Positions 3,407 through 59,284 of a DNA stretch of 64,000 bases are shown here, in pieces; position 1 is the stretch's first letter; the number at the start of each line of letters is the position of its first letter. Where the stretch lies: positions 1 to 64,000 of the forward strand of contig CAKZMU010000069.1 of the NCBI GenBank assembly GCA_937129145.1. The letters are read 5' to 3'. The translations under genes were made by a program, and so were the position numbers. This stretch comes from an uncultured Lacinutrix sp. (lineage in GTDB: Bacteria > Bacteroidota > Bacteroidia > Flavobacteriales > Flavobacteriaceae). Below the pieces are notes generated by a model. The model worked only from the letters and a program-made list of their open reading frames with translations, made no database searches and was not told the origin of the DNA.

Positions 3407-5371
3407 ATGGATTTCAAGAAAACTACACGTAACATTTTGTTTTTGAGTTTCTTATTGTCGTGTATAACAACAATTGCTCAAGAAAAACAACCTGAGCATT
3501 GTGCTACAGATGAGTATAATAAAATGCTATTAAAAGACTACCCAAACATGATGGGAAGTAAAGCATTTGAAAAAGAACTTAGTAAACAAATTCAATTAAA
3601 TAAGTTAGAAAGAGGTGGTGTAAATGGTGCTTCAAACAGAAGAGTGGTTTATACAATTCCTGTGGTTGTGCATGTAATTCACAATGGTGAAGCTATTGGT
3701 GTAGGAGCAAATATATCTGATGCTCAAGTGCTATCTCAAATACAAGTATTAAATGAGGACTTTAGAAGGATGATGGGTACCAGAGGTCACAACCTTAATT
3801 TAGCTGGAGCCGATGTTGAAGTTGAATTTTGTTTAGCACAACAAACACCAGATGGCTGTGTAACTAACGGTATTAATAGGGTAGATATGTCTGGGGTTAG
3901 TACTTCGTGGTCAGGACCAGGGGGCAATACCGATACAGTTTTAAAACCTGCAACAATATGGGATGCCTCTAAATATCTAAACATATGGTCTCTTAATTTT
4001 GCAAATAGTACCACGCTTGGATTTGCACAATTTCCTGGAGGCCCAGCCAGCTCTGATGGTGTAGTTATTGGATACCAGTATTTTGGTTCAGATGATGACC
4101 CTAATGTAACCATTCCAGGAGATTTTAATTTAGGAAGAACTGGAACACACGAAGTTGGACACTACTTTGGTTTATATCATACCTTCCAAGGAGGATGTGC
4201 TGAAGTAGGAGGGGGAGACTTATGTGCTGATACTCCAGCTGTAGCGAGTCCTAACTCAAATAATGGTACTTGTAATGTAGGAAGCGATTCCTGCCCTGCT
4301 GGATTACCTGACATGGTTGAAAATTATATGGATTATAGCCAAGATTCCTGTATGAATGTATTTACCAACGACCAAAAAGCTAGAGTTGTAGCTACTTTAA
4401 CAAGTGCCGCTAATAGGCCAACAACATTAACATCTAATGTGTGTACACCATTGGCCTCTGTTAATGATGATGGTAGTGCCCAAATAGAAGGAATTGCAAT
4501 ACAAGATTGCGGTTATGGAGCAACTGCCTCAGTAAGAATTACCAATTGGGGAACCAACGCATTAACTTCTGCGACCATTACTTATGATGAAAATGGAGGA
4601 GCTCCTTCAAGCTATAGTTGGTCAGGGTCTTTAAATTATGGAGAGTTTGAAGTGTTTAATTTACCTATGTTAGTTTCAACTCCTGGAAGTCACACTTACA
4701 ATGTTTCAGTATCCAGTCCAAACGGAAATTCAGACTTGAGGAGCTGTAATGATGATACAAATGCATCATTTAGTGTAGATCCATCTTATGCATCAACAAC
4801 TCAAATACATTTAACTTTAAACACCGATGGTTTTGGAGGAGAAACAACATGGACCTTTAAAAATGGTGCAGGAACTCCATTATATAGTGGTGGGCCACAT
4901 CTAGATAATGTAACAATAAATGAGTCTTTTGATGTTGACCCTGATGAATGTTATACGTTTACAATTCTGGATTCTGCAGGTGATGGAATATGTTGTGGAA
5001 TTTTTGGGAATGGCTCCTATGAATTAAAAGCAGATGGTAATATTTTAATTGCTTCTGGCGGTGATTTTGACAGCTCTGAAGTAACTAGAATTTCTACGAT
5101 AACTCTTAAAAAGGATGGATATTTTGCTGATAATGGTGTTAGTATTTATCCAAACCCTACTAAAGATGTCATTAATATTAAGTTGGCTAATGGAAATGAT
5201 TTACCTGACGATTACAAGATATATAATTTACTAGGTCAATTAGTAAATGAAAAGCAAATTAACCATAGCTCACAACTAAAAATAGATGCCTCTAGTTTAA
5301 GCAATGGTATGTATTTTATTAAGGTTATAAAAGAAAACGCTTCAATCTCGTTACCGTTTATTAAAAAATAA
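3407..5371 (+). CDS. Secreted M43 (pappalysin-type) zinc metalloprotease with T9SS sorting domain
   Basis: This is an extracellular endopeptidase of 654 residues. An N-terminal signal peptide (about 1-24, ending TTIAQ) is followed by a propeptide-like region and the catalytic domain. The metzincin signature [11 protein letters not shown] lies at 248-258, with three zinc-binding His and the catalytic Glu249. The downstream Met-turn region contains [16 protein letters not shown], typical of M43. Beta-rich, possibly CARDB/adhesion-like, segments occupy about 345-565. The last ~80 residues (ISIYPNPT-like start, [17 protein letters not shown], basic end) form a type A T9SS C-terminal domain, which directs export and surface attachment. 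It stands alone between pth and ribF. The substrate is unknown. Confidence 0.9.
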
Positions 5372-5417
5372 AGTGTTTTTACTAACATAAAATCCTAATT
5401 TTGTAAAAAAGAATTAG

Positions 5418-6350
5418 TTGAAAATTAAAACCACTTTAGAGGCCTATCCTAAAACGGATTCAGTAGTTACTATTGGCACGTTTGATGGTGTACATATTGG
5501 GCATCAAAAAATTATTAAACGACTTGTTACAATAGCTCAAGAAGAAGGGCTGCAAGCAGTTGTGCTTAGCTTTTTTCCTCATCCAAGAATGGTGCTGCAA
5601 AAAGACACTAATATTAAGTTAATTAATACTATTGATGAAAAATCACAACTACTTGAAAACTTTGGTATTGACCACTTGGTTATTAAAAAATTCACAAAAG
5701 ATTTCTCTCGATTGGGAGCTTTGGAATTTGTAAGGGATATTCTGGTAAACAAACTTCAAGTAAAGCATATTATTGTTGGCTATGACCATAGGTTTGGTCG
5801 AAATCGAAATGCCAATATAGATGATTTAAGAGAGTATGGAGATGTATATGGTTTTAAAATCACTGAAATTACCGCACAAGAAATAGACGAAGTTGCTGTT
5901 AGCTCTACCAAAATTAGAAAAGCATTAAACGAAAGCGACATAGAAACAGCAAACGCTTTTTTAGGCTATAATTTTATGCTCACAGGGACTGTCGTTAAAG
6001 GCAAAAACCTAGGTAAAAAAATAGGTTTCCCAACAGCAAATATCAATATCGAGGAATCTTACAAACTCATACCAAAAAATGGCTCGTATATAGTAAGATC
6101 AATCATAGATAATAAAACTATTTATGGCATGATGAATATTGGTACCAACCCTACCGTAAATGGTGAAGGCCAAACTATAGAAGTTCATTTCTTCAACTTT
6201 AAAGAAGATATTTACGGAAAAAAGATTCAAATAGAACTCATAAAACGATTAAGAGACGAGCAAAAATTTGAGACTATTGATGCTTTAAAAGCACAATTAT
6301 ATAACGACAAACAAACTAGCCTAAACTTTTTAGAGCAATTCAATGCTTAA
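5418..6350 (+). CDS. ribF: Bifunctional riboflavin kinase/FAD synthetase
   Basis: RibF phosphorylates riboflavin to FMN and adenylylates it to FAD. The 310 residues include the N-terminal nucleotidyltransferase domain with TIGTFDGVHIGHQKI (about 18-32, HxGH motif) and VVGYDHRFGRNR. The C-terminal flavokinase domain contains GKNLGKKIGFPTANI and the MNIGTNPTV loop. The start is TTG at 5418, because a TAG stop immediately precedes it in frame and no ATG precedes the conserved domain. A -7-like TAATTTTG lies 15 bases upstream (5396-5403). The 3' end overlaps the next gene by 8 bases. Confidence 0.95.
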   Translation: MKIKTTLEAYPKTDSVVTIGTFDGVHIGHQKIIKRLVTIAQEEGLQAVVLSFFPHPRMVLQKDTNIKLINTIDEKSQLLENFGIDHLVIKKFTKDFSRLGALEFVRDILVNKLQVKHIIVGYDHRFGRNRNANIDDLREYGDVYGFKITEITAQEIDEVAVSSTKIRKALNESDIETANAFLGYNFMLTGTVVKGKNLGKKIGFPTANINIEESYKLIPKNGSYIVRSIIDNKTIYGMMNIGTNPTVNGEGQTIEVHFFNFKEDIYGKKIQIELIKRLRDEQKFETIDALKAQLYNDKQTSLNFLEQFNA

Positions 6351-7662
6351 CAAACTACTATTTAAACCAATAGACAACAGTGCACTAATTGCGTTTAGGG
6401 TATTATTTGGTTTACTTGTAGCTATAGAATCTTTTGGAGCCATATTTTCAGGCTGGGTTCATCTTGCTTTTATAGAGCCTAAATACGTATTTTCCTTTAT
6501 AGGTTTTGAATGGTTACAACCGCTTCCAGATTACTGGATGTATGTTTACTACGCAGTTATGGGAATATGTGGTTTGTTAATAATGGTGGGTTATAAATAT
6601 AGGTTGAGTATTATTTCGTTTGCCATTTTATGGTCAGGTACTTACTTCATGCAAAAATCGTCTTATAACAATCACTACTATTTATTAATTCTTATTAGTT
6701 TGTTTATGGCAGTAGTGCCTGCAAACGCTAATTTTTCACTAGACTCCAAAAACAGACCAAGCATAAAAAGTAGTATAATGCCACAATGGTGTACGGTAAT
6801 TTTTATTGTGCAAATGTTTATTGTGTACACTTATGCGTCGATAGCAAAATTGTATCCAGACTGGTTAGATACGACTGCTGTTGAACTTCTTCTTAAATCA
6901 AAAAGGGATTACTATATCATTGGAGATGTGCTGCAACAAAAATGGCTACATTATATAATTGCTTATTTCGGAATAGCTTTTGACCTACTTATTGTGCCAC
7001 TATTACTCTGGAAACGAACTAGAAAGTATGCGTTTTTAATAGCGATAGTATTTCATTTGTTTAATTCTATTGTGTTTCAAATTGGGATTTTTCCATATAT
7101 GTCTTTGGCTTTATGTGTTTTCTTTTTTGACCCCAAAATGGTAAGAAAAAAAATTTTCAAAACTCAAAAAGTTATCGAAAAAAGTAAGGATTCAACAGTT
7201 AGGAACAAAAGTATTATTATGATGTTACTAATTGGATATTTTGTGATTCAGTTGATATTGCCACTTCGTCATTGGGCCATTAAAGATGATGTGCTTTGGA
7301 CCGAAGAAGGACACAGACTATCATGGAGAATGATGTTAAGAGCAAGACAAGGCATCATTTCATTTAAAGCAATAGATAAGGCAAATAATCAAACTATTCC
7401 AATTCAATTAGATACTTATTTAACCTATAAACAGAAAAGGAGTTTTGCATCAAAACCAGATATGATTTGGCAATTTGCCCAGTTTATTAAAAAAACATAT
7501 AAAGAAGAGGTAAATAGAGATGTGATGGTGTTTGTAGATTGTCAGGTTAAAATCAACGGAAAGTCCTATAAACCTTTAATCGACCCTAAAGTAGATTTGG
7601 CTTCGGTTAAATGGAATGCTTTTAAACATTCACCATGGATTTTACCATCAAAACAAGACTGA
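6343..7662 (+). CDS. HTTM-domain membrane protein (vitamin K-dependent gamma-carboxylase-like)
   Basis: This 439-residue integral membrane protein has about seven to eight hydrophobic segments, followed by a soluble C-terminal part (about 330-439). The layout and sequences such as ALIAFRVLFG near the start, SYNNHYYLLIL and LPLRHWAIKDDVLWTEEGHRLSWRMMLR resemble HTTM proteins, the family of vitamin K-dependent gamma-glutamyl carboxylase. The bacterial role is unknown and no peptide substrate is visible nearby. It overlaps ribF by 8 bases, suggesting translational coupling, although a functional link to flavin synthesis is only inferred from position. Confidence 0.8.
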   Translation: MLNKLLFKPIDNSALIAFRVLFGLLVAIESFGAIFSGWVHLAFIEPKYVFSFIGFEWLQPLPDYWMYVYYAVMGICGLLIMVGYKYRLSIISFAILWSGTYFMQKSSYNNHYYLLILISLFMAVVPANANFSLDSKNRPSIKSSIMPQWCTVIFIVQMFIVYTYASIAKLYPDWLDTTAVELLLKSKRDYYIIGDVLQQKWLHYIIAYFGIAFDLLIVPLLLWKRTRKYAFLIAIVFHLFNSIVFQIGIFPYMSLALCVFFFDPKMVRKKIFKTQKVIEKSKDSTVRNKSIIMMLLIGYFVIQLILPLRHWAIKDDVLWTEEGHRLSWRMMLRARQGIISFKAIDKANNQTIPIQLDTYLTYKQKRSFASKPDMIWQFAQFIKKTYKEEVNRDVMVFVDCQVKINGKSYKPLIDPKVDLASVKWNAFKHSPWILPSKQD

Positions 7663-7741
7663 TTTTCTTTGTAATTCCTTAAATTTGTCGCTTCATTCAT
7701 CAAAACTATTTAAAGTGACGATGAACCTAAATTTTTAGTCA

Positions 7742-9013
7742 ATGTTACAAGTTCCCTTTATTAGAGAAAACCAAGATTTGGTAATAGCACGTTTAGCAAA
7801 ACGAAATATTGATGCTACCAAAATGATTTCAGAAGCTATTGAGCTTGATGAAGAACGAAGAAAAACCCAAACCGAATTGGATAATACGTTGGCTGAGTCT
7901 AATGCGCTTTCTAAAGAAATAGGAATGCTTTATAAATCGGGAAAGGCAGACCAAGCCAATGCCATTAAAGATAGAACTGCTCAATTAAAAGAGGATAGCA
8001 AAGCGTTAACCGAAAAATTAAATAATACATCTGAGAAACTAGAAGAATTACTTTTTAAAATTCCAAATGTACCTCATGAGTCTGTTCCAGCTGGAAATAC
8101 TGATGAAGATAACGAAGAAGTTTTCAGGGAAGGAGATATTCCAGTATTACACGAAAATGCCCTACCTCATTGGGAATTAGCAAAGAAATATGACATTATT
8201 GATTTTGAACTAGGTAATAAAATCACAGGTGCAGGTTTTCCTGTTTATAAAGGAAAAGGAGCAAAACTACAACGAGCACTTATAGGGTATTTTTTAGATA
8301 AAAATACAGCTGCAGGTTACCAAGAAGTACAAGTGCCACATTTGGTAAATGAAGCATCAGGCTTTGGGACAGGACAATTACCTGATAAAGAAGGGCAAAT
8401 GTACCATGTAACCGAAGATAATTTATATTTAATCCCTACGGCAGAAGTTCCAGCAACAAATATTTTTAGGGACGAGCTTTTAAAAGAAGATGAGTTGCCA
8501 AAAGCCTTAACAGGCTACACACCATGTTTTCGTCGTGAGGCTGGAAGTTATGGAGCGCACGTTCGTGGGTTGAATAGATTACACCAATTTGATAAAGTTG
8601 AAATTTTACGTGTAGAGCATCCAACACGTTCTTACCAAGCACTTGATGACATGGTTGCACATGTAAAATCAATATTAAAAGAATTAAAACTACCGTATCG
8701 TATTTTAAGATTATGTGGTGGCGATTTAGGATTTACATCGGCATTGACCTACGATTTTGAAGTATTTTCTACAGCGCAAGATAGATGGCTGGAAATTTCA
8801 TCGGTATCAAACTTTGAAACATTTCAAGCAAATCGATTAAAATTGCGTTTTAAAAACAGCAATGGTAAAAGTGAATTGGCGCATACCTTAAACGGAAGTT
8901 CTTTAGCATTACCTCGCGTGTTAGCAGGAATTTTAGAGAATTGTCAAACTGAAAAAGGCATAAAAATCCCAGATGCTTTAGTACCATACACTGGTTTTGA
9001 TTACATTAACTAG
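7742..9013 (+). CDS. serS: Seryl-tRNA synthetase
   Basis: This class II synthetase charges tRNA-Ser (and Sec-tRNA where present). The 423 residues match the family. The N-terminal long coiled-coil arm (about 28-110, rich in Glu/Lys/Leu) contacts the tRNA extra arm. The catalytic core carries motif 2 (CFRREAGSYG, RGLNRLHQFDKVEI) and motif 3 (NGSSLALPRVLAGILENCQ). The ATG start is at 7742; a -7-like TAAATTTG lies at 7680-7687. It appears to be transcribed alone. Confidence 0.97.
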   Translation: MLQVPFIRENQDLVIARLAKRNIDATKMISEAIELDEERRKTQTELDNTLAESNALSKEIGMLYKSGKADQANAIKDRTAQLKEDSKALTEKLNNTSEKLEELLFKIPNVPHESVPAGNTDEDNEEVFREGDIPVLHENALPHWELAKKYDIIDFELGNKITGAGFPVYKGKGAKLQRALIGYFLDKNTAAGYQEVQVPHLVNEASGFGTGQLPDKEGQMYHVTEDNLYLIPTAEVPATNIFRDELLKEDELPKALTGYTPCFRREAGSYGAHVRGLNRLHQFDKVEILRVEHPTRSYQALDDMVAHVKSILKELKLPYRILRLCGGDLGFTSALTYDFEVFSTAQDRWLEISSVSNFETFQANRLKLRFKNSNGKSELAHTLNGSSLALPRVLAGILENCQTEKGIKIPDALVPYTGFDYIN

Positions 9014-9085
9014 GGTTTTTTGATTGAGATTAAAGTGTTAAATTTTAACATTTCAATCGTTAAAATGCATAAAAAACACGTTGTT

Positions 9086-9106
9086 TGACGATTTTTTCGT
9101 CATTTT
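9086..9106 (+). terminator. Probable serS terminator hairpin
   Basis: The perfect 6-bp arms TGACGA and TCGTCA around a T5 loop are followed by TTTTCC, 72 bases after the serS stop. It is weak as a terminator and could instead be an operator for the small downstream gene. Confidence 0.4.
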
Positions 9107-9167
9107 CCTTTGATTTTTGAAAAAAATTGTAGAAGTTAGCATAACCAAATCTAATTAACCTACAGTT

Positions 9168-9239
9168 ATGAAAAATTTTAAACGAATATTTCTATTAGTA
9201 ACCCTTGTGGTACTGGTAGTTCAAGTAATATTTAATTAA
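9168..9239 (+). CDS. Possible 23-residue single-span membrane peptide
   Basis: ATG at 9168 opens MKNFKRIFLLVTLVVLVVQVIFN and stops at TAA 9237-9239. A basic N-terminus followed by an uninterrupted hydrophobic helix of about 16 residues is the pattern of a type-II-like small membrane protein. It lies in a 416-base gap between serS and the TPR gene and is followed by a strong terminator at 9351, so a dedicated short transcript is plausible. No family is recognised. It may be only an unexpressed chance ORF, or mark the 5' part of an sRNA. Confidence 0.4.
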   Translation: MKNFKRIFLLVTLVVLVVQVIFN

Positions 9240-9350
9240 CAAAGGGCTCAAATCGAAATAATTCCCTTAAGAAATTTAAAAAGACCACAACAGGATAATT
9301 GAATCATTTTGTGAAAATATGATTAATAGCACATTTATTTTGGATGGTTA
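9240..9350 (+). other. Untranslated stretch between small peptide and terminator
   Basis: No ORF of note is seen. Short complementary segments are present: AAGGG (9242-9246) with CCCTT (9264-9268), and AATCAT with ATGATT around 9303-9325. These could give local RNA structure in a 3' UTR or a small RNA ending at the 9351 hairpin. Confidence 0.3.
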
Positions 9351-9379
9351 TGCCTGAACTTCGGTTCAGGCATTTTTTT
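9351..9379 (+). terminator. UUCG-tetraloop intrinsic terminator
   Basis: A perfect 9-bp stem TGCCTGAAC/GTTCAGGCA with a TTCG tetraloop closed by C-G is followed by a run of seven Ts. It is among the best terminators in the window and lies about 50 bases before the next gene. Confidence 0.9.
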
Positions 9380-9429
9380 ATTAAAATATTCACATTATCA
9401 AAACACACATTTACTATATTTACAAAGCC

Positions 9430-11211
9430 ATGAAGTTTGTAATCTACATTTGTTGCTTTATTTTTTCAGTTACTGCATTTTCGCAGAATGACGAGTCGTT
9501 GGCTAAAAGCTATTTTGACCGTGGTGAATTTGAAAAAGCATTAATCTCTTACCAAAACCTATATCAAGAAAAGAAGAATAACTTAAATTATTTTTTCAGG
9601 ATTATTGAAATACATCAGCAATTAGAACAATACGATTTGGCCGAATTATTATTGAAGGAAAAAATAAATGGACAAAGAGATGGACAATTTATAGTGGAAT
9701 TGGGTTATAACTTTCAATTAAAAGGTAATCAAGAAGAAGCCGAAAAGCACTATAATGAAGCCATAAATAAAATTGAAGAAGACCCTCTTTTTGCTTATTT
9801 CATAGCACGTCGTTTTGAAATTCATGCACTTATAGATAAAGCAGCCATTGTTTACGAAAGAGCTATGGAATTACGCCCAGAATCTAATTTTTACAGGCAA
9901 TTAGCACGTATTTATGGTGAACAAGGAAAAGTTGATAAAATGTTTAATAGTTATGTCAACTATATTGAAGTAAACCCAACGTTCGTACACCAAGCAAAAC
10001 GATTGTTTAGCGAATACATTACCGAAAATGGTGACGACGAAAATAATAGTCATTTAAGAAAAGCCCTGTTGCGCAAAGCACAGCAAACCCCAGATATTAT
10101 TTGGAACCAATTATTAAGCTGGATGTTTATTCAACAAAGAGATTATGGTAAAGCATTTGCACAAGAACGAGCCATTTTTAAAAGAGCACCAGAATCTTTA
10201 AGAGGCATTTTAGATTTAGCAAGAATCACGATAGAACAGGAAGAGGTAGAAACAGCAAAAACTATTTTAAATTATGTCATCGAGAATGTCATGGAACCAA
10301 CCATTGTGCTTGACGCTCATAAAGATGCGTTGGAAATAGAGGCAAAACACACACCAAAAGATAATTACGCCTCAATTGATGAAAAATATAAAAGCCTATT
10401 GGAGTTTTACGGAAGAAACGTTCAAACCATTAATTTACAACTGTCTTATGGTAGGTTTATGGCTTTTTATAACGACAAACCCAAAGAAGCTATTTCCTTT
10501 TTAAAAGAAACACTAAACACTAGAACATCTAGAGTGCAAGAAGCAAGAGTTAAGCTGTTGTTGGGAGATGTTTTGACTCTTCAAGAAAAATTCAATGAAG
10601 CACTTATTTATTACTCGCAAATTCAAGCGAGTTTAAAAAATAGTATTATTTCTCAAGAAGCAAGATTTAGGGTAGCTAAGGCAAGTTATTACAAAGGTGA
10701 TTTTAAATGGGCCGAATCTCAGCTGAAAATTCTAAAATCTTCTACGTCACAATTAATTGCAAACGATGCTTTAGATTTGAAATTATTGATTTCAGATAAT
10801 AAATACGACGACTCCACACAAACAGCTTTAAAATTGTATGCAAAAGCAGATTTATTGGCGTTTCAAAATAAAACTAACGAAGCTATAACCAAGTTGGATG
10901 TGATTATTGCCAACCATAAAACGGAGTCCATTATGGACCAAGCTTTGTATAAACAAGCTAGATTGTTTGAAGAACTAAAAGATTACCCAAGAGCCGAAGC
11001 TAATTATCTAGCAATTATCGAAAACTACCGTGAAGATATTTTGGCAGACGATGCGTACTACAGGTTAGCCGAATTATACAGCAACCAATTGGCACAACCC
11101 GAAAAAGCCAAAGAATTTTACGAAAAAGTAATTTTCGATTATGCCGATAGTATCTTTTTTGTGGATGCTCGTAAAAAATATAGGGCTTTGCGTGGTGATG
11201 TTATAAACTAA
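9430..11211 (+). CDS. Exported tetratricopeptide-repeat protein
   Basis: This 593-residue protein has an N-terminal signal peptide (MKFVIYICCFIFSVTAFSQ) and helical repeats through most of its length. Typical TPR helices occur near the start (AKSYFDRGEFEKALISYQNLY) and near the C-terminus (ALYKQARLFEELKDYPRAEANYLAII, DDAYYRLAELYSN). A scaffold role in the periplasm or at the outer membrane is likely from the family. The specific partner is unknown. A single-gene unit between the 9351 terminator and the next small gene is likely. Confidence 0.85.
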   Translation: MKFVIYICCFIFSVTAFSQNDESLAKSYFDRGEFEKALISYQNLYQEKKNNLNYFFRIIEIHQQLEQYDLAELLLKEKINGQRDGQFIVELGYNFQLKGNQEEAEKHYNEAINKIEEDPLFAYFIARRFEIHALIDKAAIVYERAMELRPESNFYRQLARIYGEQGKVDKMFNSYVNYIEVNPTFVHQAKRLFSEYITENGDDENNSHLRKALLRKAQQTPDIIWNQLLSWMFIQQRDYGKAFAQERAIFKRAPESLRGILDLARITIEQEEVETAKTILNYVIENVMEPTIVLDAHKDALEIEAKHTPKDNYASIDEKYKSLLEFYGRNVQTINLQLSYGRFMAFYNDKPKEAISFLKETLNTRTSRVQEARVKLLLGDVLTLQEKFNEALIYYSQIQASLKNSIISQEARFRVAKASYYKGDFKWAESQLKILKSSTSQLIANDALDLKLLISDNKYDDSTQTALKLYAKADLLAFQNKTNEAITKLDVIIANHKTESIMDQALYKQARLFEELKDYPRAEANYLAIIENYREDILADDAYYRLAELYSNQLAQPEKAKEFYEKVIFDYADSIFFVDARKKYRALRGDVIN

Positions 11212-11239
11212 TTGTCAGCCAACATTAGAATATAATTCA

Positions 11240-11656
11240 ATGCATGAAAACTTTATTTATATTGAAAATGTCAAAGAAAGTGATTTGCTTAAAGCTCTTC
11301 AAGATTTAGCTAACCTCTATTCCGATACAGGTTATACTGACGAAATAGAGATATATCGAAAAAAAGACAAATATGATTCATTTTCAATAATATTTCCTAA
11401 ACTGCCTGATTTTGACAGATTTTCATATTTTGTTAACTATCTATACCTGCCTTTTGATTTAGATAAATTTGAACCAAGAGTGAAAGGATATTATAAAGTA
11501 AAAAACATAACAGATAATCTTGAATTCAAAACTGGAGATTGGGTTATTTTGTTTATGACAAAAAATGATACTGATTTAGATGAAGTGAGTTTGGTGAATG
11601 AAAAAGATGAAAATTACAATTTTGATTTCGGCGGTCGAGTAAAAAAAAATGAATAG
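11240..11656 (+). CDS. Uncharacterised acidic protein, 138 aa, ending in an A9 run
   Basis: No family is recognised. The sequence is Asp/Glu-rich with aromatic residues, has no signal peptide or membrane segment, and looks like a small globular cytoplasmic protein. The coding frame ends just after nine consecutive A residues (11641-11649). In the +1 frame an ORF continues for another 44 codons. Loss of one A, or slippage, would give a fused protein of about 180 residues. Which form is real cannot be decided here. Confidence 0.6.
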   Translation: MHENFIYIENVKESDLLKALQDLANLYSDTGYTDEIEIYRKKDKYDSFSIIFPKLPDFDRFSYFVNYLYLPFDLDKFEPRVKGYYKVKNITDNLEFKTGDWVILFMTKNDTDLDEVSLVNEKDENYNFDFGGRVKKNE

Positions 11657-11783
11657 AAAATTGGAAATGTACCGCTTTATAAATTTAGATTTAAATAATT
11701 ATTTTTTTGTCAAAGTCATAAGACCAAATGAAATGAAGAAGTCATTAAAATTAGAAAGTAAGCCTTGGTGGAAAATATGGTAA
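11649..11783 (+). CDS. Small ORF or frameshifted C-terminal part of the preceding gene, 44 aa
   Basis: ATG 11649 opens an ORF that overlaps the preceding gene by 8 bases and ends SLKLESKPWWKIW. The aromatic end KPWWKIW resembles C-terminal tails seen on various short bacterial proteins. It may be an independent small protein translated by reinitiation, or the true C-terminus of the 138-residue protein reached by a +1 shift at the A9 run. It is too short to assign a function. Confidence 0.4.
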   Translation: MNRKLEMYRFINLDLNNYFFVKVIRPNEMKKSLKLESKPWWKIW

Positions 11784-56302: not shown

Positions 56303-57955
56303 ATGAAAAACTTTAAAAAGGGCTTGCTGTTAAGTTTAATGCTTGTGACTTTTATGTCGCTTAACGCAATTGCATTAACAGATGGCTATCCAAAAAACCC
56401 AAAAATTGACGCTTTAAATTATATCTTCAAGATTGAATTGTCTGATAATACAGATGTTATCATTTGTCAAGTCACAGTCGATATTCGTTTTAAAGGCGCA
56501 GGTGTTCAAAAATTACGATTGGATTTAATAAATGCCTCTAGTGCTTTAAACGGAAGAGGAATGGTGGTTAGTAGTGTGGAATCAAATGGTAGTGCGTTAA
56601 AATTCACTCATGAAAATGACGAGTTGTTTATTCATCTTCCTGAACCATCAAAACTCAATCAACGTGCGCAATATATTATTCATTACAAAGGTATTCCAGC
56701 AAGCGGATTAAAAATTGCTGATAATAAACATGGAGACAGAACATTTTTTAGCGATAATTGGCCAAATCGTGGGCGTCATTGGTTATCGACGATAGACCAT
56801 CCTTATGATAAAGCGATGTGTGAATTTATTGTGACTGCTCCCAATCATTATCAAGTAGTGTCTAACGGATTGAAAATTGAAGAAACAAATCTTGATAATA
56901 ATATGAAGCAAACGCATTGGAAACAATCTGTGCCAATAGCTTCATGGTTGTATGTACTAGGTGTTGCTGAATTTGCTGTGCAATATGTAGATGAGTTTGA
57001 TGGCAAATCCATTGAAACATGGGTATTTAAACAAGATAGAGATGCAGGGTTTTACGATTTTGCTGAACCAACAAAACAAGCACTGGAGTTTTACAGTGAC
57101 TATGTTGGACCGTTTTCGTATGAAAAATTGGCAAACATACAGTCCAATAGTGTAAGTGGTGGCATGGAAGCAGCTTCGGCAATTTTGTATAGTGCAAGTT
57201 CGGTCGTTGGCGATAGAAATACGCGTTGGCGTAATGTGGTAATTCACGAAGTGGCACACCAATGGTTTGGTAATGCTGTCACGGAGTATGATTGGGACGA
57301 TATTTGGTTAAGCGAGGGTTTTGCTACCTATTTCACACTGCTTTTTATTGAACATCAATATGGTAGGGATGAGTTTGTAGATGGACTTAAATCAAGTCAA
57401 AAAAGAGTCGATACATTTTATGAGAAAAACCCAGAGTATACTATTGTTCATGATAATTTAAAAAACATGAAAGATGTAACAACATCGCAAATCTACCAAA
57501 AAGGAAGTTGGATTTTACACATGTTGCGAGGTGTAGTAGGAACTGATACTTTTTGGGAAGGCATACAAATGTATTACAACCAATACAAAGATTTGAATGT
57601 TAACACTGATGGTTTTAAAAGAGTGATGGAAGAAGTGTCCGGAAAAGATTTGGATGTCTTTTTCGAGCAATGGTTGTACAAACCAGGAATACTACAAATT
57701 GATGGACATTGGAAGTACAATAAAAAAACCAACGAAGTAATTATCAATTTAAACCAAGTGCAAACAGATGGAAGCCTATTTGAAATGCCTATCGAAATAG
57801 GTATTGATTTTGGTGACAAACCACAACACATAGAGTTGGTTAAAATAACAGGAAAATCAAATAGTTTTAAGATAAAAGTCGATAAAGAGCCTAAAAATGT
57901 TATACTTGACCCAAATTATTGGGTATTGATGAATGCGGAGTTTAGGAAAGGTTAG
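56303..57955 (+). CDS. Exported M1 family aminopeptidase
   Basis: From ATG 56303 the protein has 550 residues. Signal peptide MKNFKKGLLLSLMLVTFMSLNAIA is followed by the beta-saddle domain (about 30-220). The catalytic domain has NSVSGGMEAASAIL (exopeptidase GxMEN-like motif), VVIHEVAHQWFGNAV (zinc HExxH) and LSEGFATYF (third ligand Glu). The C-terminal domain is short. It trims N-terminal residues of peptides in the periplasm. The frame is open to 56243; the signal peptide fixes the start. Its 3' end abuts the tRNA-Phe-derived repeat. Confidence 0.93.
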   Translation: MKNFKKGLLLSLMLVTFMSLNAIALTDGYPKNPKIDALNYIFKIELSDNTDVIICQVTVDIRFKGAGVQKLRLDLINASSALNGRGMVVSSVESNGSALKFTHENDELFIHLPEPSKLNQRAQYIIHYKGIPASGLKIADNKHGDRTFFSDNWPNRGRHWLSTIDHPYDKAMCEFIVTAPNHYQVVSNGLKIEETNLDNNMKQTHWKQSVPIASWLYVLGVAEFAVQYVDEFDGKSIETWVFKQDRDAGFYDFAEPTKQALEFYSDYVGPFSYEKLANIQSNSVSGGMEAASAILYSASSVVGDRNTRWRNVVIHEVAHQWFGNAVTEYDWDDIWLSEGFATYFTLLFIEHQYGRDEFVDGLKSSQKRVDTFYEKNPEYTIVHDNLKNMKDVTTSQIYQKGSWILHMLRGVVGTDTFWEGIQMYYNQYKDLNVNTDGFKRVMEEVSGKDLDVFFEQWLYKPGILQIDGHWKYNKKTNEVIINLNQVQTDGSLFEMPIEIGIDFGDKPQHIELVKITGKSNSFKIKVDKEPKNVILDPNYWVLMNAEFRKG

Positions 57956-57956
57956 A

Positions 57957-58040
57957 AAACAAAAAACCCTGAAAACAATAAAGTTTCAGGGTTTTAATGT
58001 GGTGCCTCCAGCTCCGAAGCGTCGGAGGAACCAGGGACAC
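57957..58040. repeat. Distal copy of the tRNA-Phe 3' end plus terminator (direct repeat A)
   Basis: Bases 57957-58011 are identical over 55 bases to 58338-58392 (terminator hairpin plus the 3' end of tRNA-Phe). Then CTCCGAAGCGTCGGAG (58012-58027) stands where the gene has GAATC, and GAACCAGGGACAC (58028-58040) is again identical to 58398-58410. It is the displaced, no longer functional 3' part of tRNA-Phe. Confidence 0.95.
57961..57996. terminator. Terminator hairpin (copy 1) shared by M1 peptidase and the GIY-YIG unit
   Basis: The stem AAAACCCTGAAA/TTTCAGGGTTTT lies 6 bases after the M1 gene stop. It terminates the plus-strand gene and the minus-strand unit. Confidence 0.85.
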
Positions 58041-58043
58041 TAT

Positions 58044-58325
58044 TTATCTGTTTTGTAAAATATCAGTTAAAATAAGAGGGCTTTGAATTACCTTGGCGAT
58101 AAATTTTTTGCTTTTCATTCGTTTAATGAAACTTTCAAGAAATAAGGCTTCATTTCTTGATGAACACTCAAAATTTAAAACCACTGTCCAGTCATTGGCT
58201 ATTTTAGTATAACTTCCTTTATAAGAATGATTATTATGTTTATTGAGCCTTTCAACAACATCATCTGTTTCACCAACATAATACTTTTCTTTTGATGGAC
58301 TGTAGATAATGTAGAGGTAATGCAT
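58044..58325 (-). CDS. Small GIY-YIG nuclease next to tRNA-Phe
   Basis: This 93-residue protein begins MHYLYIIYSPSKEKYYVGET (GIY-YIG core at residues 4-18), with the helix ERLNKHN (Arg26 as candidate catalytic Arg) and Glu64 in EALFLESFIKRMKSKKF. It belongs to the UvrC-like/YhbQ-like single-domain group. The frame is open upstream into the tRNA, but the conserved start is ATG 58325. Its stop abuts a partial tRNA-Phe copy and its ATG follows the tRNA terminator hairpin by 12 bases, leaving no room for a normal promoter. Expression by read-through from tRNA-Phe is the simplest view. DNA cleavage at the tRNA gene is inferred from the flanking repeats. Confidence 0.88.
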   Translation of the reverse strand: MHYLYIIYSPSKEKYYVGETDDVVERLNKHNNHSYKGSYTKIANDWTVVLNFECSSRNEALFLESFIKRMKSKKFIAKVIQSPLILTDILQNR

Positions 58326-58337
58326 TTTGATTAAATT

Positions 58338-58410
58338 AAACAAAAAACCCTGAAAACAATAAAGTTTCAGGGTTTTAATGTGGTGCCTCCAGGAATCGAA
58401 CCAGGGACAC
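58338..58410. repeat. Proximal copy of the tRNA-Phe 3' end plus terminator (direct repeat B)
   Basis: This is the intact partner of 57957-58040. It contains the terminator hairpin (58342-58377) and the functional tRNA-Phe 3' half. The two copies flank the GIY-YIG gene as direct repeats about 381 bases apart. Confidence 0.95.
58342..58377 (-). terminator. tRNA-Phe terminator hairpin (copy 2)
   Basis: The stem AAAACCCTGAAA/TTTCAGGGTTTT with a T run on the minus strand starts 4 bases after the tRNA 3' end. Confidence 0.85.
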
Positions 58411-58453
58411 ATGGATTTTCAGTCCATTGCTCTACCAACTGAGCTAAGGCACC
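58381..58453 (-). tRNA. tRNA-Phe(GAA)
   Basis: On the minus strand the 73-base gene starts GGTGCCTTAGCTCAGTTGGT and ends TTCGATTCCTGGAGGCACCA. Anticodon stem ATGGA/TCCAT encloses CTGAAAA, anticodon GAA. The acceptor stem GGTGCCT/AGGCACC pairs perfectly. Its 3' half is duplicated beyond the GIY-YIG gene. Confidence 0.97.
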
Positions 58454-58552
58454 TTCTGCATAAATGCGGTTGCAAATATATATTCTTTTTATCATCTGCC
58501 AAAATAAAAAGATAAAAAATGGTTTTGTAAATTTACACCTTTTATTTTGCAG

Positions 58553-59284
58553 ATGAATTTAATTATAGATGTAGGTAATACCAATGTGAAACTTGCTGTT
58601 TTTCAAGACAATGAGATTGTCAACAAGCAAATAGTTGACTTAGATGCAATCGATATTAAAATTATTGAGCTTACGAAAAAATATAATAATTTGGGCAAAG
58701 CTATTATATCTTCAGTTGGACGTTTAAGTGAACCACAAATAGCAAATATTTCAAATTGTATTAGCACTATTGTATTAGATTCAAAAACCAGAGTGCCATT
58801 TAAAAACAAATACAAAACACCCGAAACACTTGGTGTAGATAGAATTGCATTAGTAAGTGCTTCGGTATTAAAATATTCTAAAAACAATGTATTGATTATT
58901 GATGCTGGAACCTGCATCACTTACGATTTTATCAATACCAAAAACGAATATCTGGGTGGTGCCATTTCACCTGGAATTTCAACACGCTACAAGTCCTTAA
59001 ATAATTTAACAGCCAACTTACCGTTATTGAAAAGAAAAGCACCAAAAAAATTAATTGGAAAATCTACAAAGCAATCCATTCATTCGGGAGTTATTAATGG
59101 AATTTCAATGGAAATAGATGGAATTGTTAATAAATACCGAAAAAAATATAAAGATTTAACAGTTATTTTAACAGGAGGAGACGCAGATTTCTTGTCAAAG
59201 CGATTAAAAAGTAGCATATTTGCGAACTCTAATTTTCTTTTAGAAGGTTTGAATTTCATATTAGAATATAACACAAACGAATGA
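58553..59284 (+). CDS. coaX: Type III pantothenate kinase
   Basis: CoaX catalyses the first step of coenzyme A synthesis. From ATG 58553 it has 243 residues starting MNLIIDVGNTNVKLAVF (phosphate 1 motif), with ISSVGRL, TLGVDRIALVSAS, the catalytic DAGTCITYDF and GGAISPGISTRYKSL. A C-terminal VILTGGDADFL completes the ASKHA fold. Two codons upstream a TTG exists, but the ATG matches the family start. Unlike types I and II it is not feedback-inhibited by CoA. It overlaps the next gene by 4 bases (ATGA). Confidence 0.95.
   Translation: MNLIIDVGNTNVKLAVFQDNEIVNKQIVDLDAIDIKIIELTKKYNNLGKAIISSVGRLSEPQIANISNCISTIVLDSKTRVPFKNKYKTPETLGVDRIALVSASVLKYSKNNVLIIDAGTCITYDFINTKNEYLGGAISPGISTRYKSLNNLTANLPLLKRKAPKKLIGKSTKQSIHSGVINGISMEIDGIVNKYRKKYKDLTVILTGGDADFLSKRLKSSIFANSNFLLEGLNFILEYNTNE

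Follow-up and report, generated by a model that had tools for sequence, protein, structure and literature searches.

The 64,000-nucleotide stretch of DNA from an uncultured Lacinutrix sp. analysed here (the window) carries, directly behind its tRNA-Phe gene, a 381-bp unit which, from sequence comparisons, probably belongs to a family of very small mobile elements that lack an integrase, reside in tRNA genes and spread by nuclease-driven homing. On the minus strand the order is tRNA-Phe, terminator, GIY-YIG gene, crippled tRNA-Phe 3' end and second terminator (Table 1). A sequence-only reading of this DNA had proposed the same order, with a gene of 93 aa, and it was confirmed by ARAGORN, Pfam and the repeats. 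That reading had also taken a 55-base identity and a shared 13-base piece to be direct repeats flanking the gene in a unit of about 381 bases. The repeats at 57957-58011 and 58338-58392 are indeed 100% identical over 55 nt with a spacing of 381 bp, and the 13-mer common to both tails (58028-58040 and 58398-58410) sits 5' of the 55-mers. An exact 55-nt repeat inside 1.5 kb is not a product of chance.

Table 1. Features of the tRNA-Phe locus in the window
Feature	Position	Strand	Evidence
Intact tRNA-Phe(GAA)	58380..58453	-	ARAGORN (gaa); Rfam tRNA, 71.3 bits
Terminator hairpin, first copy, behind intact tRNA	58338..58379	-	Inverted repeat 58344-58355 / 58365-58376, then T run
GIY-YIG nuclease gene, 93 aa + stop	58044..58325 (ORF 58047-58325, stop to 58044)	-	PF01541, E 9.9e-14
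13-nt tRNA-Phe piece GTGTCCCTGGTTC, start of crippled copy	58028..58040	-	Direct repeat D2
Palindrome (hairpin) CTCCGACGCTTCGGAG replacing T-loop	58012..58027	-	Sequence; core once in window; both-side hairpin changes in relatives
Displaced tRNA-Phe 3' end CTGGAGGCACCAC	57999..58011	-	Part of 55-nt repeat
Terminator, second copy	57957..57998	-	Part of 55-nt repeat
Whole unit, 381 bp (gene, hairpin tail, terminator)	57957..58337	-	381-bp repeat spacing

In the crippled copy, the T-loop between the 13-mer and the 55-mer has been swapped for CTCCGACGCTTCGGAG, a perfect hairpin whose core occurs at one place in the whole window, allowing up to one mismatch. This hairpin in the displaced copy, tandem arrays and a mirror-image (upstream) form of the unit go beyond the sequence-only reading. 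As that reading held, the unit encodes no integrase and the GIY-YIG nuclease is its only protein, from the only ORF of ≥ 60 aa on its strand. Group I intron RNA is likewise absent, tRNA being alone above the Rfam gathering score in 57800-58600. The window genome has a single tRNA-Phe (one genome match to the tRNA-Phe pattern used) and one copy of the GIY-YIG gene; its other five protein matches are weak (E 5e-4 to 0.5), with no tRNA within the fetched stretches. The arrangement would fit read-through of the gene from tRNA-Phe.

Elsewhere in the same genome (G000:C46, L116), two near-identical stretches at 11749 and 14662, about 2.9 kb apart and with no tRNA near, share the hairpin core of the window unit. 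The window tRNA-Phe (58380-58453) is unlike that of its five congeners at base-paired sites in the acceptor and anticodon stems (GGTGCC/ATGG compared with GGTACC/ACGG); the gene, or part of it, looks as if it were of outside origin.

The layout of the window is seen again at tRNA-Phe in other genomes. At the family level, at least 87 of 397 genomes have a homologue at E ≤ 1e-10, often several in tandem, and a tRNA gene was present in 73 of 81 loci (80 fetched stretches and the window), on the same strand every time. Named genomes with Phe-type relatives (titled groups: Flavobacteriaceae and other Bacteroidota) gave 78 loci, with tRNA-Phe upstream in 60, tRNA-Leu(UAA) upstream in six, tRNA-Cys downstream in two and no tRNA in ten, eight of which sit less than 700 bases from a contig end. 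At the phylum level, at least 233 of 395 genomes have a family member at E ≤ 1e-8; 25 of the 29 best-match loci (window included) and 36 of the 40 next-ranked places lie by a tRNA, all on the same strand. When pooled, 208 loci (profile or homology hits, not a random draw, with 20 duplicates removed by hand and some overlaps between named and unnamed records perhaps remaining) had a tRNA gene in the fetched stretch in 185 cases. All 185 were on the same strand and 182 of the 208 within 500 bp, bearing out the expectation that homologues adjoin tRNA genes; for scale, sequence no more than 500 bp from either of the two tRNAs makes up 3.4% of the window. The nearest tRNA may differ from the host tRNA (L069 is labelled Ser and has a crippled copy that resembles tRNA-Pro), and ARAGORN took the crippled copies of L099 and L114 for tRNAs.

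Fifteen of the 23 pooled loci with no tRNA lie less than 700 bases from an end. The eight interior exceptions comprise four with clear tRNA fragments (L108, L113, L319 and L339, scores 30-33), two with the Phe hairpin tail (L204 and L237) and two with weak fragments only (L103 and L290, scores 14 and 16, no control). Two or more copies are present in 70 of the 208 loci, with a median step of 370 bp; 381 bp is also the period of a tandem array in G157 (five successive 381-bp steps among the matches listed). In the array at L162 (G157:C1 544200-547500) the first nuclease copy is cut short near its start, and a stretch of different sequence, about 1.5 kb long, separates it from the next G157 copy. 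At a tRNA-Met locus of G123 (L074), a five-copy array is separated from further copies by about 7 kb (4470-11550) that include a phage-integrase ORF (PF00589); an island may have used a crippled tRNA tail as its attachment site. The window protein had no match in plasmids or phages, nor, in a search for close relatives only, in viral contigs, which counts against homing. No paper on this bacterial family was found by title or start of abstract in the open-licence PubMed Central literature.

The units take two forms. In the 3' form, the intact tRNA and a terminator are followed by one or more repeats of gene, crippled tRNA 3' part and terminator. The mirror-image form lies upstream, where one or more repeats of crippled tRNA 5' part and gene precede the intact tRNA; it occurs mostly at Pro and at some Asn tRNAs, and also at Arg(CCU) and single others. 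The repeats of the mirror-image loci L091 and L112, as read, take in the stretch ahead of the tRNA, and in L068, L071 and L093 the ORF terminates within tRNA-Pro, whose TAG serves as stop codon. A fragment of the locus's own tRNA was found on the far side of the gene, above all 20 shuffles, in 165 of 179 testable loci (137/150 for the 3' form, 28/29 for the mirror-image form), and above other-isotype controls in 158; in 45/179 loci such a control, taken as the best among at most 40, reached a score of at least 12. The 14 of 179 loci with no clear own-tRNA fragment count against homing as the best explanation.

A perfect stem of six or more is present in the crippled stretch of 142 of the 154 loci with a clear fragment (10.8 expected from shuffles) and in 44 of 179 intact tRNAs. 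Hairpins differ in sequence across units, and so does the part replaced, as read by eye among the copies listed (part of them, including the Asn copies, being left out). It is the T-loop in Phe and Leu, the anticodon loop (L074 and L107) or T-arm (L055) in Met, the anticodon arm in Arg(UCU), Ala (L070) and Pro(GGG), the T-arm in Pro(UGG), and the anticodon arm with or without the T-loop in Val. A clear crippled copy is absent from L050 and L072, and L045 has three hairpin tails and no gene. At Phe loci a strict hairpin pattern was matched in 55 of 64, and in three of the nine misses (L213, L218 and L230) a hairpin next to an altered base is recognisable by eye. Two pairs of the Phe-type hairpin vary on both sides: among 46 sequences, C-G is replaced by T-A in 19 at one pair and in 5 at the other, and half-changes (G-U) are absent from both; both-side cells number 25 in all, compared with 7.9 when shuffled (0/500 shuffles as high). 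In some loci the terminator of the crippled copy bears an additional hairpin that the terminator of the intact tRNA lacks; it is located within the loop in L209, L211, L213 and L218, and at the foot in L200 and L222.

A further palindrome, CCCGATAGCTATCGGG, is dispersed in 11 of 15 genomes, at 1 to 18 copies each. The idea that it is the nuclease's own dispersed repeat was set aside, 15 genomes being too few to tie it to carriage of the nuclease. At L119 1062 it lies inside an apparent tRNA-Asp terminator loop, and at L126 323, L134 474 and L131 876 it is in crippled tRNA-Asn, Phe and Pro copies, respectively; L131 has a family nuclease gene and the stretches L119, L126 and L134 have none.

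Comparison with unoccupied sites reveals the direction of insertion of the 3' form in two genera. In the genus of G152 (eight genomes, tRNA-Phe), the sites of G799 and G794 are empty. In the carriers G152, G796 and G797 another terminator follows the intact tRNA, and the empty-site type is found only after the outermost hairpin copy; scored against the empty-site terminators, outer terminators reach 29-33 of 38 and inner ones 20-21. G334 has kept an inner terminator together with a truncated gene fused to the flank, and G795 and G798 have a different Phe unit. In the genus of G123 (18 genomes, tRNA-Met), where the tRNA was readable in 10 of 15 fetched loci, a terminator is common to five unit-less sites, the flank too in L191 and L193, and three others differ. 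In the carriers G123 and G416 the inner terminator is foreign, whereas the outer one and its flank are those shared by unit-less sites. The outermost copy in G123 has the T-stem of four of the five empty sites, and its intact tRNA has another. In these two genera the 3' part of the intact tRNA and its terminator arrive with the element, the native ones being left outermost, past the hairpin. In a third genus, that of G302 (tRNA-Arg), the outermost terminator matches none of the congeners, which counts against homing.

Within the window's own genus (six genomes), the four other members without the gene have an empty tRNA-Phe site with one terminator each and no second repeat in 560 bases, as the sequence-only reading predicted; three of these terminators are of the window's type, and that of G398 is not. 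The remaining member, G399, is a second carrier, on two contigs, with the same hairpin as the window. That reading had also claimed that the 3' end and terminator were replaced and the originals displaced. This is seen directly in the two other genera but is unreadable in the window itself, since both its terminators are identical; that they are also of the type of three of the four empty congeners counts against homing there. Recombination between repeats could remove a unit exactly, so that a site may be empty either through loss or because it is ancestral. Even so, the foreign inner end means that insertion occurred.

The protein belongs to the GIY-YIG nuclease superfamily by its PF01541 match (E 9.9e-14) and invariant Y5, Y16, R26 and E64. 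Across 26 diverse family members Y5, I6, S9, Y16, R26, H30, W46, E64 and K68 are invariant, of which Y5, Y16, R26 and E64 correspond to the catalytic Tyr, Tyr, Arg and Glu of GIY-YIG enzymes. The ratio dN/dS was 0.09-0.20 in 7/12 pairs, indicating that the nuclease is under purifying selection; it was 0.48 in L044/L040, and 4/12 pairs, including the window's own with G399, were saturated. A tree built from 79 proteins, on few alignment columns and with many forks weakly supported, required 20 changes of tRNA label, compared with a minimum of 13 and a shuffled mean of 52.7 (0/200 shuffles as low), with Phe and Val each split in two by naming and 'none' counted as a group. Each nuclease lineage is tied to one tRNA identity. 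A role in defence was considered and rejected, as PADLOC yielded weak partial matches only, and so was a link to the SOS response, the GIY-YIG protein in the available part of that account (PMC8565304) being a different one.

If the unit is a homing element, its nuclease would cut the uninterrupted tRNA gene in or near the replaced loop, and the break would be repaired from an element-bearing copy with conserved tRNA sequence serving as homology, so that the element is copied in and the tRNA remains whole. The hairpin may destroy the cut site or disarm the displaced half, and recombination between repeated tRNA ends could produce both arrays and precise losses. Like a homing element, the family has a fixed site and alleles that lack the gene (the empty tRNA-Phe and tRNA-Met sites in congeners). 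Also in favour of homing are the same-strand tRNA at 185 of 208 loci, the own-tRNA fragments, the excess of perfect stems, the agreement of the nuclease tree with tRNA identity, the displaced native ends in two genera and the selection on the nuclease. Two further points weigh against homing. At tRNA-Phe the homology on the right-hand side extends over a mere 13 nt or so. In addition, the intact tRNA-Phe T-arm is identical in 75/75 matching genomes (of 80), carriers and non-carriers alike, in a comparison whose pattern itself fixed GGTTC and two further bases. In the occupied allele the displaced copy is broken by the hairpin, yet the T-arm of the intact copy is unchanged, and the intact copy should still be a target. 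The idea of a resistant allele was dropped for the same reason, no T-arm difference separating carriers from non-carriers of the Phe type in those 75 of 80 genomes.

The chief alternative to homing is cleavage of the hairpin itself. A structure-specific, SLX1-like nuclease would cut the hairpin or cruciform of its own crippled copy, the break driving tandem amplification and the ends invading tRNA genes. Tolerance of the unchanged intact tRNA would then be explained, and the perfect hairpin, altered on both sides with no half-changes at its varying pairs and differing in sequence between units, is in keeping with recognition of structure. The nearest solved relatives of the protein, for which the structure model is confident (pLDDT 95.6), are UPF0213 and then the structure-specific SLX1 nucleases (1zg2, 1ywl, SLX1). 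However, Foldseek gave no match at E ≤ 0.001 and the likeness of fold concerns the catalytic domain. Cutting at the hairpin alone also leaves both the restriction of each lineage to one tRNA and the first entry into an empty site unaccounted for, and we consider this alternative unlikely.

Integrative elements that target tRNA genes restore their 3' ends, and the unit could be the cargo or relic of such an element, placed by a recombinase acting in trans, with the repeats as attachment sites. The phage-integrase ORF in the stretch that separates unit copies in L074 favours this. Nevertheless, the 381-bp unit contains no integrase, the same layout is found at many tRNAs and on either side of them, the crippled copy contains a hairpin and the nuclease lineage follows tRNA identity; an origin of this kind is improbable. 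A system working at the level of RNA, with a toxin-like nuclease directed at its tRNA and the hairpin-bearing mimic of that tRNA serving as decoy or antitoxin, appears more improbable still. The crippled copy is predicted to form a stable RNA fold (its 80-nt tail, terminator included, has a z of -4.9), and one Pro crippled copy still scores as tRNA in Rfam (39.3 bits). Against this, foreign terminators and displaced native ends are not predicted by such a system, half-changed (G-U) hairpin pairs are missing and the PADLOC matches were weak. The identity of the two 55-nt copies in the window might speak for a simple tandem duplication, in which a tRNA tail was doubled on either side of an ordinary chromosomal gene. 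This is hardly credible, being contradicted by the empty-site comparisons with their foreign inner terminators in two genera and by the same design at many tRNAs.

If homing is correct, many small GIY-YIG genes in the phylum would be accounted for, a member being present in the majority of genomes searched. It would add a way of living in tRNA genes, one of them single-copy here, that needs neither integrase nor intron. It also implies that some tRNA genes have foreign ends and terminators and that annotation nearby will meet crippled tRNA copies. Nuclease lineages dedicated to one tRNA each are direct test material for specificity and self-protection.

It is tentatively proposed, at a little short of even chances, that these units form a separate class of mobile element. 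Such an element would be 0.3-0.4 kb long with a single-domain, SLX1-like GIY-YIG nuclease, would use the conservation of one tRNA as homology arms across species and would exchange either half of that tRNA. The hairpin on the displaced half would be part of its life cycle (cut site, block or origin of amplification), and its lineages would be specialised on many tRNA identities of one phylum.

Among known systems, a tRNA-targeting integrative element has a site-specific recombinase, and none is found here. UPF0213 and SLX1-type single GIY-YIG domains are the nearest in solved sequence and fold; unlike here, a tRNA-linked repeat unit is not part of the descriptions of those structures. REP-like palindromes resemble CCCGATAGCTATCGGG in being short and dispersed, but here such hairpins also occupy the arms of crippled tRNA copies. 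Bacterial tRNA genes are also occupied by group I introns that carry homing endonucleases (PMC3984707) and, in the available part of that account, are likewise selfish, nuclease-encoding and compatible with a functional tRNA. They splice out and disrupt the cut site, whereas here intron RNA is absent by Rfam and the intact copy keeps the site. SegB, a free-standing GIY-YIG homing endonuclease of T-even phages, is reported to promote amplification of itself with a tRNA segment (PMC13096335). The adjoining GIY-YIG and tRNA genes and their joint amplification are points of likeness that favour homing; SegB is a phage gene, and a replaced tRNA half and a hairpin copy are absent from its description in the text available. 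Mobile endonuclease ORFs of fungal mitochondria (Glomus and Allomyces) replace the 3' ends of host genes and leave the native end downstream, unused (PMC3630166). As in those ORFs, judged from the portion of the source at hand, a nuclease ORF brings a replacement host-gene end and the native end persists as a downstream duplicate, a foreign gene end with the native one beyond the nuclease gene being found in the genera of G152 and G123. The fungal ORFs are in mitochondrial protein genes and mostly of the LAGLIDADG type, whereas the units described here are in bacterial tRNA genes and, compared with that same portion, differ in having a terminator in the replacement, an upstream form, a hairpin in the displaced copy and tandem arrays. 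The finding is filed among the gene-end-replacing homing elements, as a variant not described before in the literature searched.
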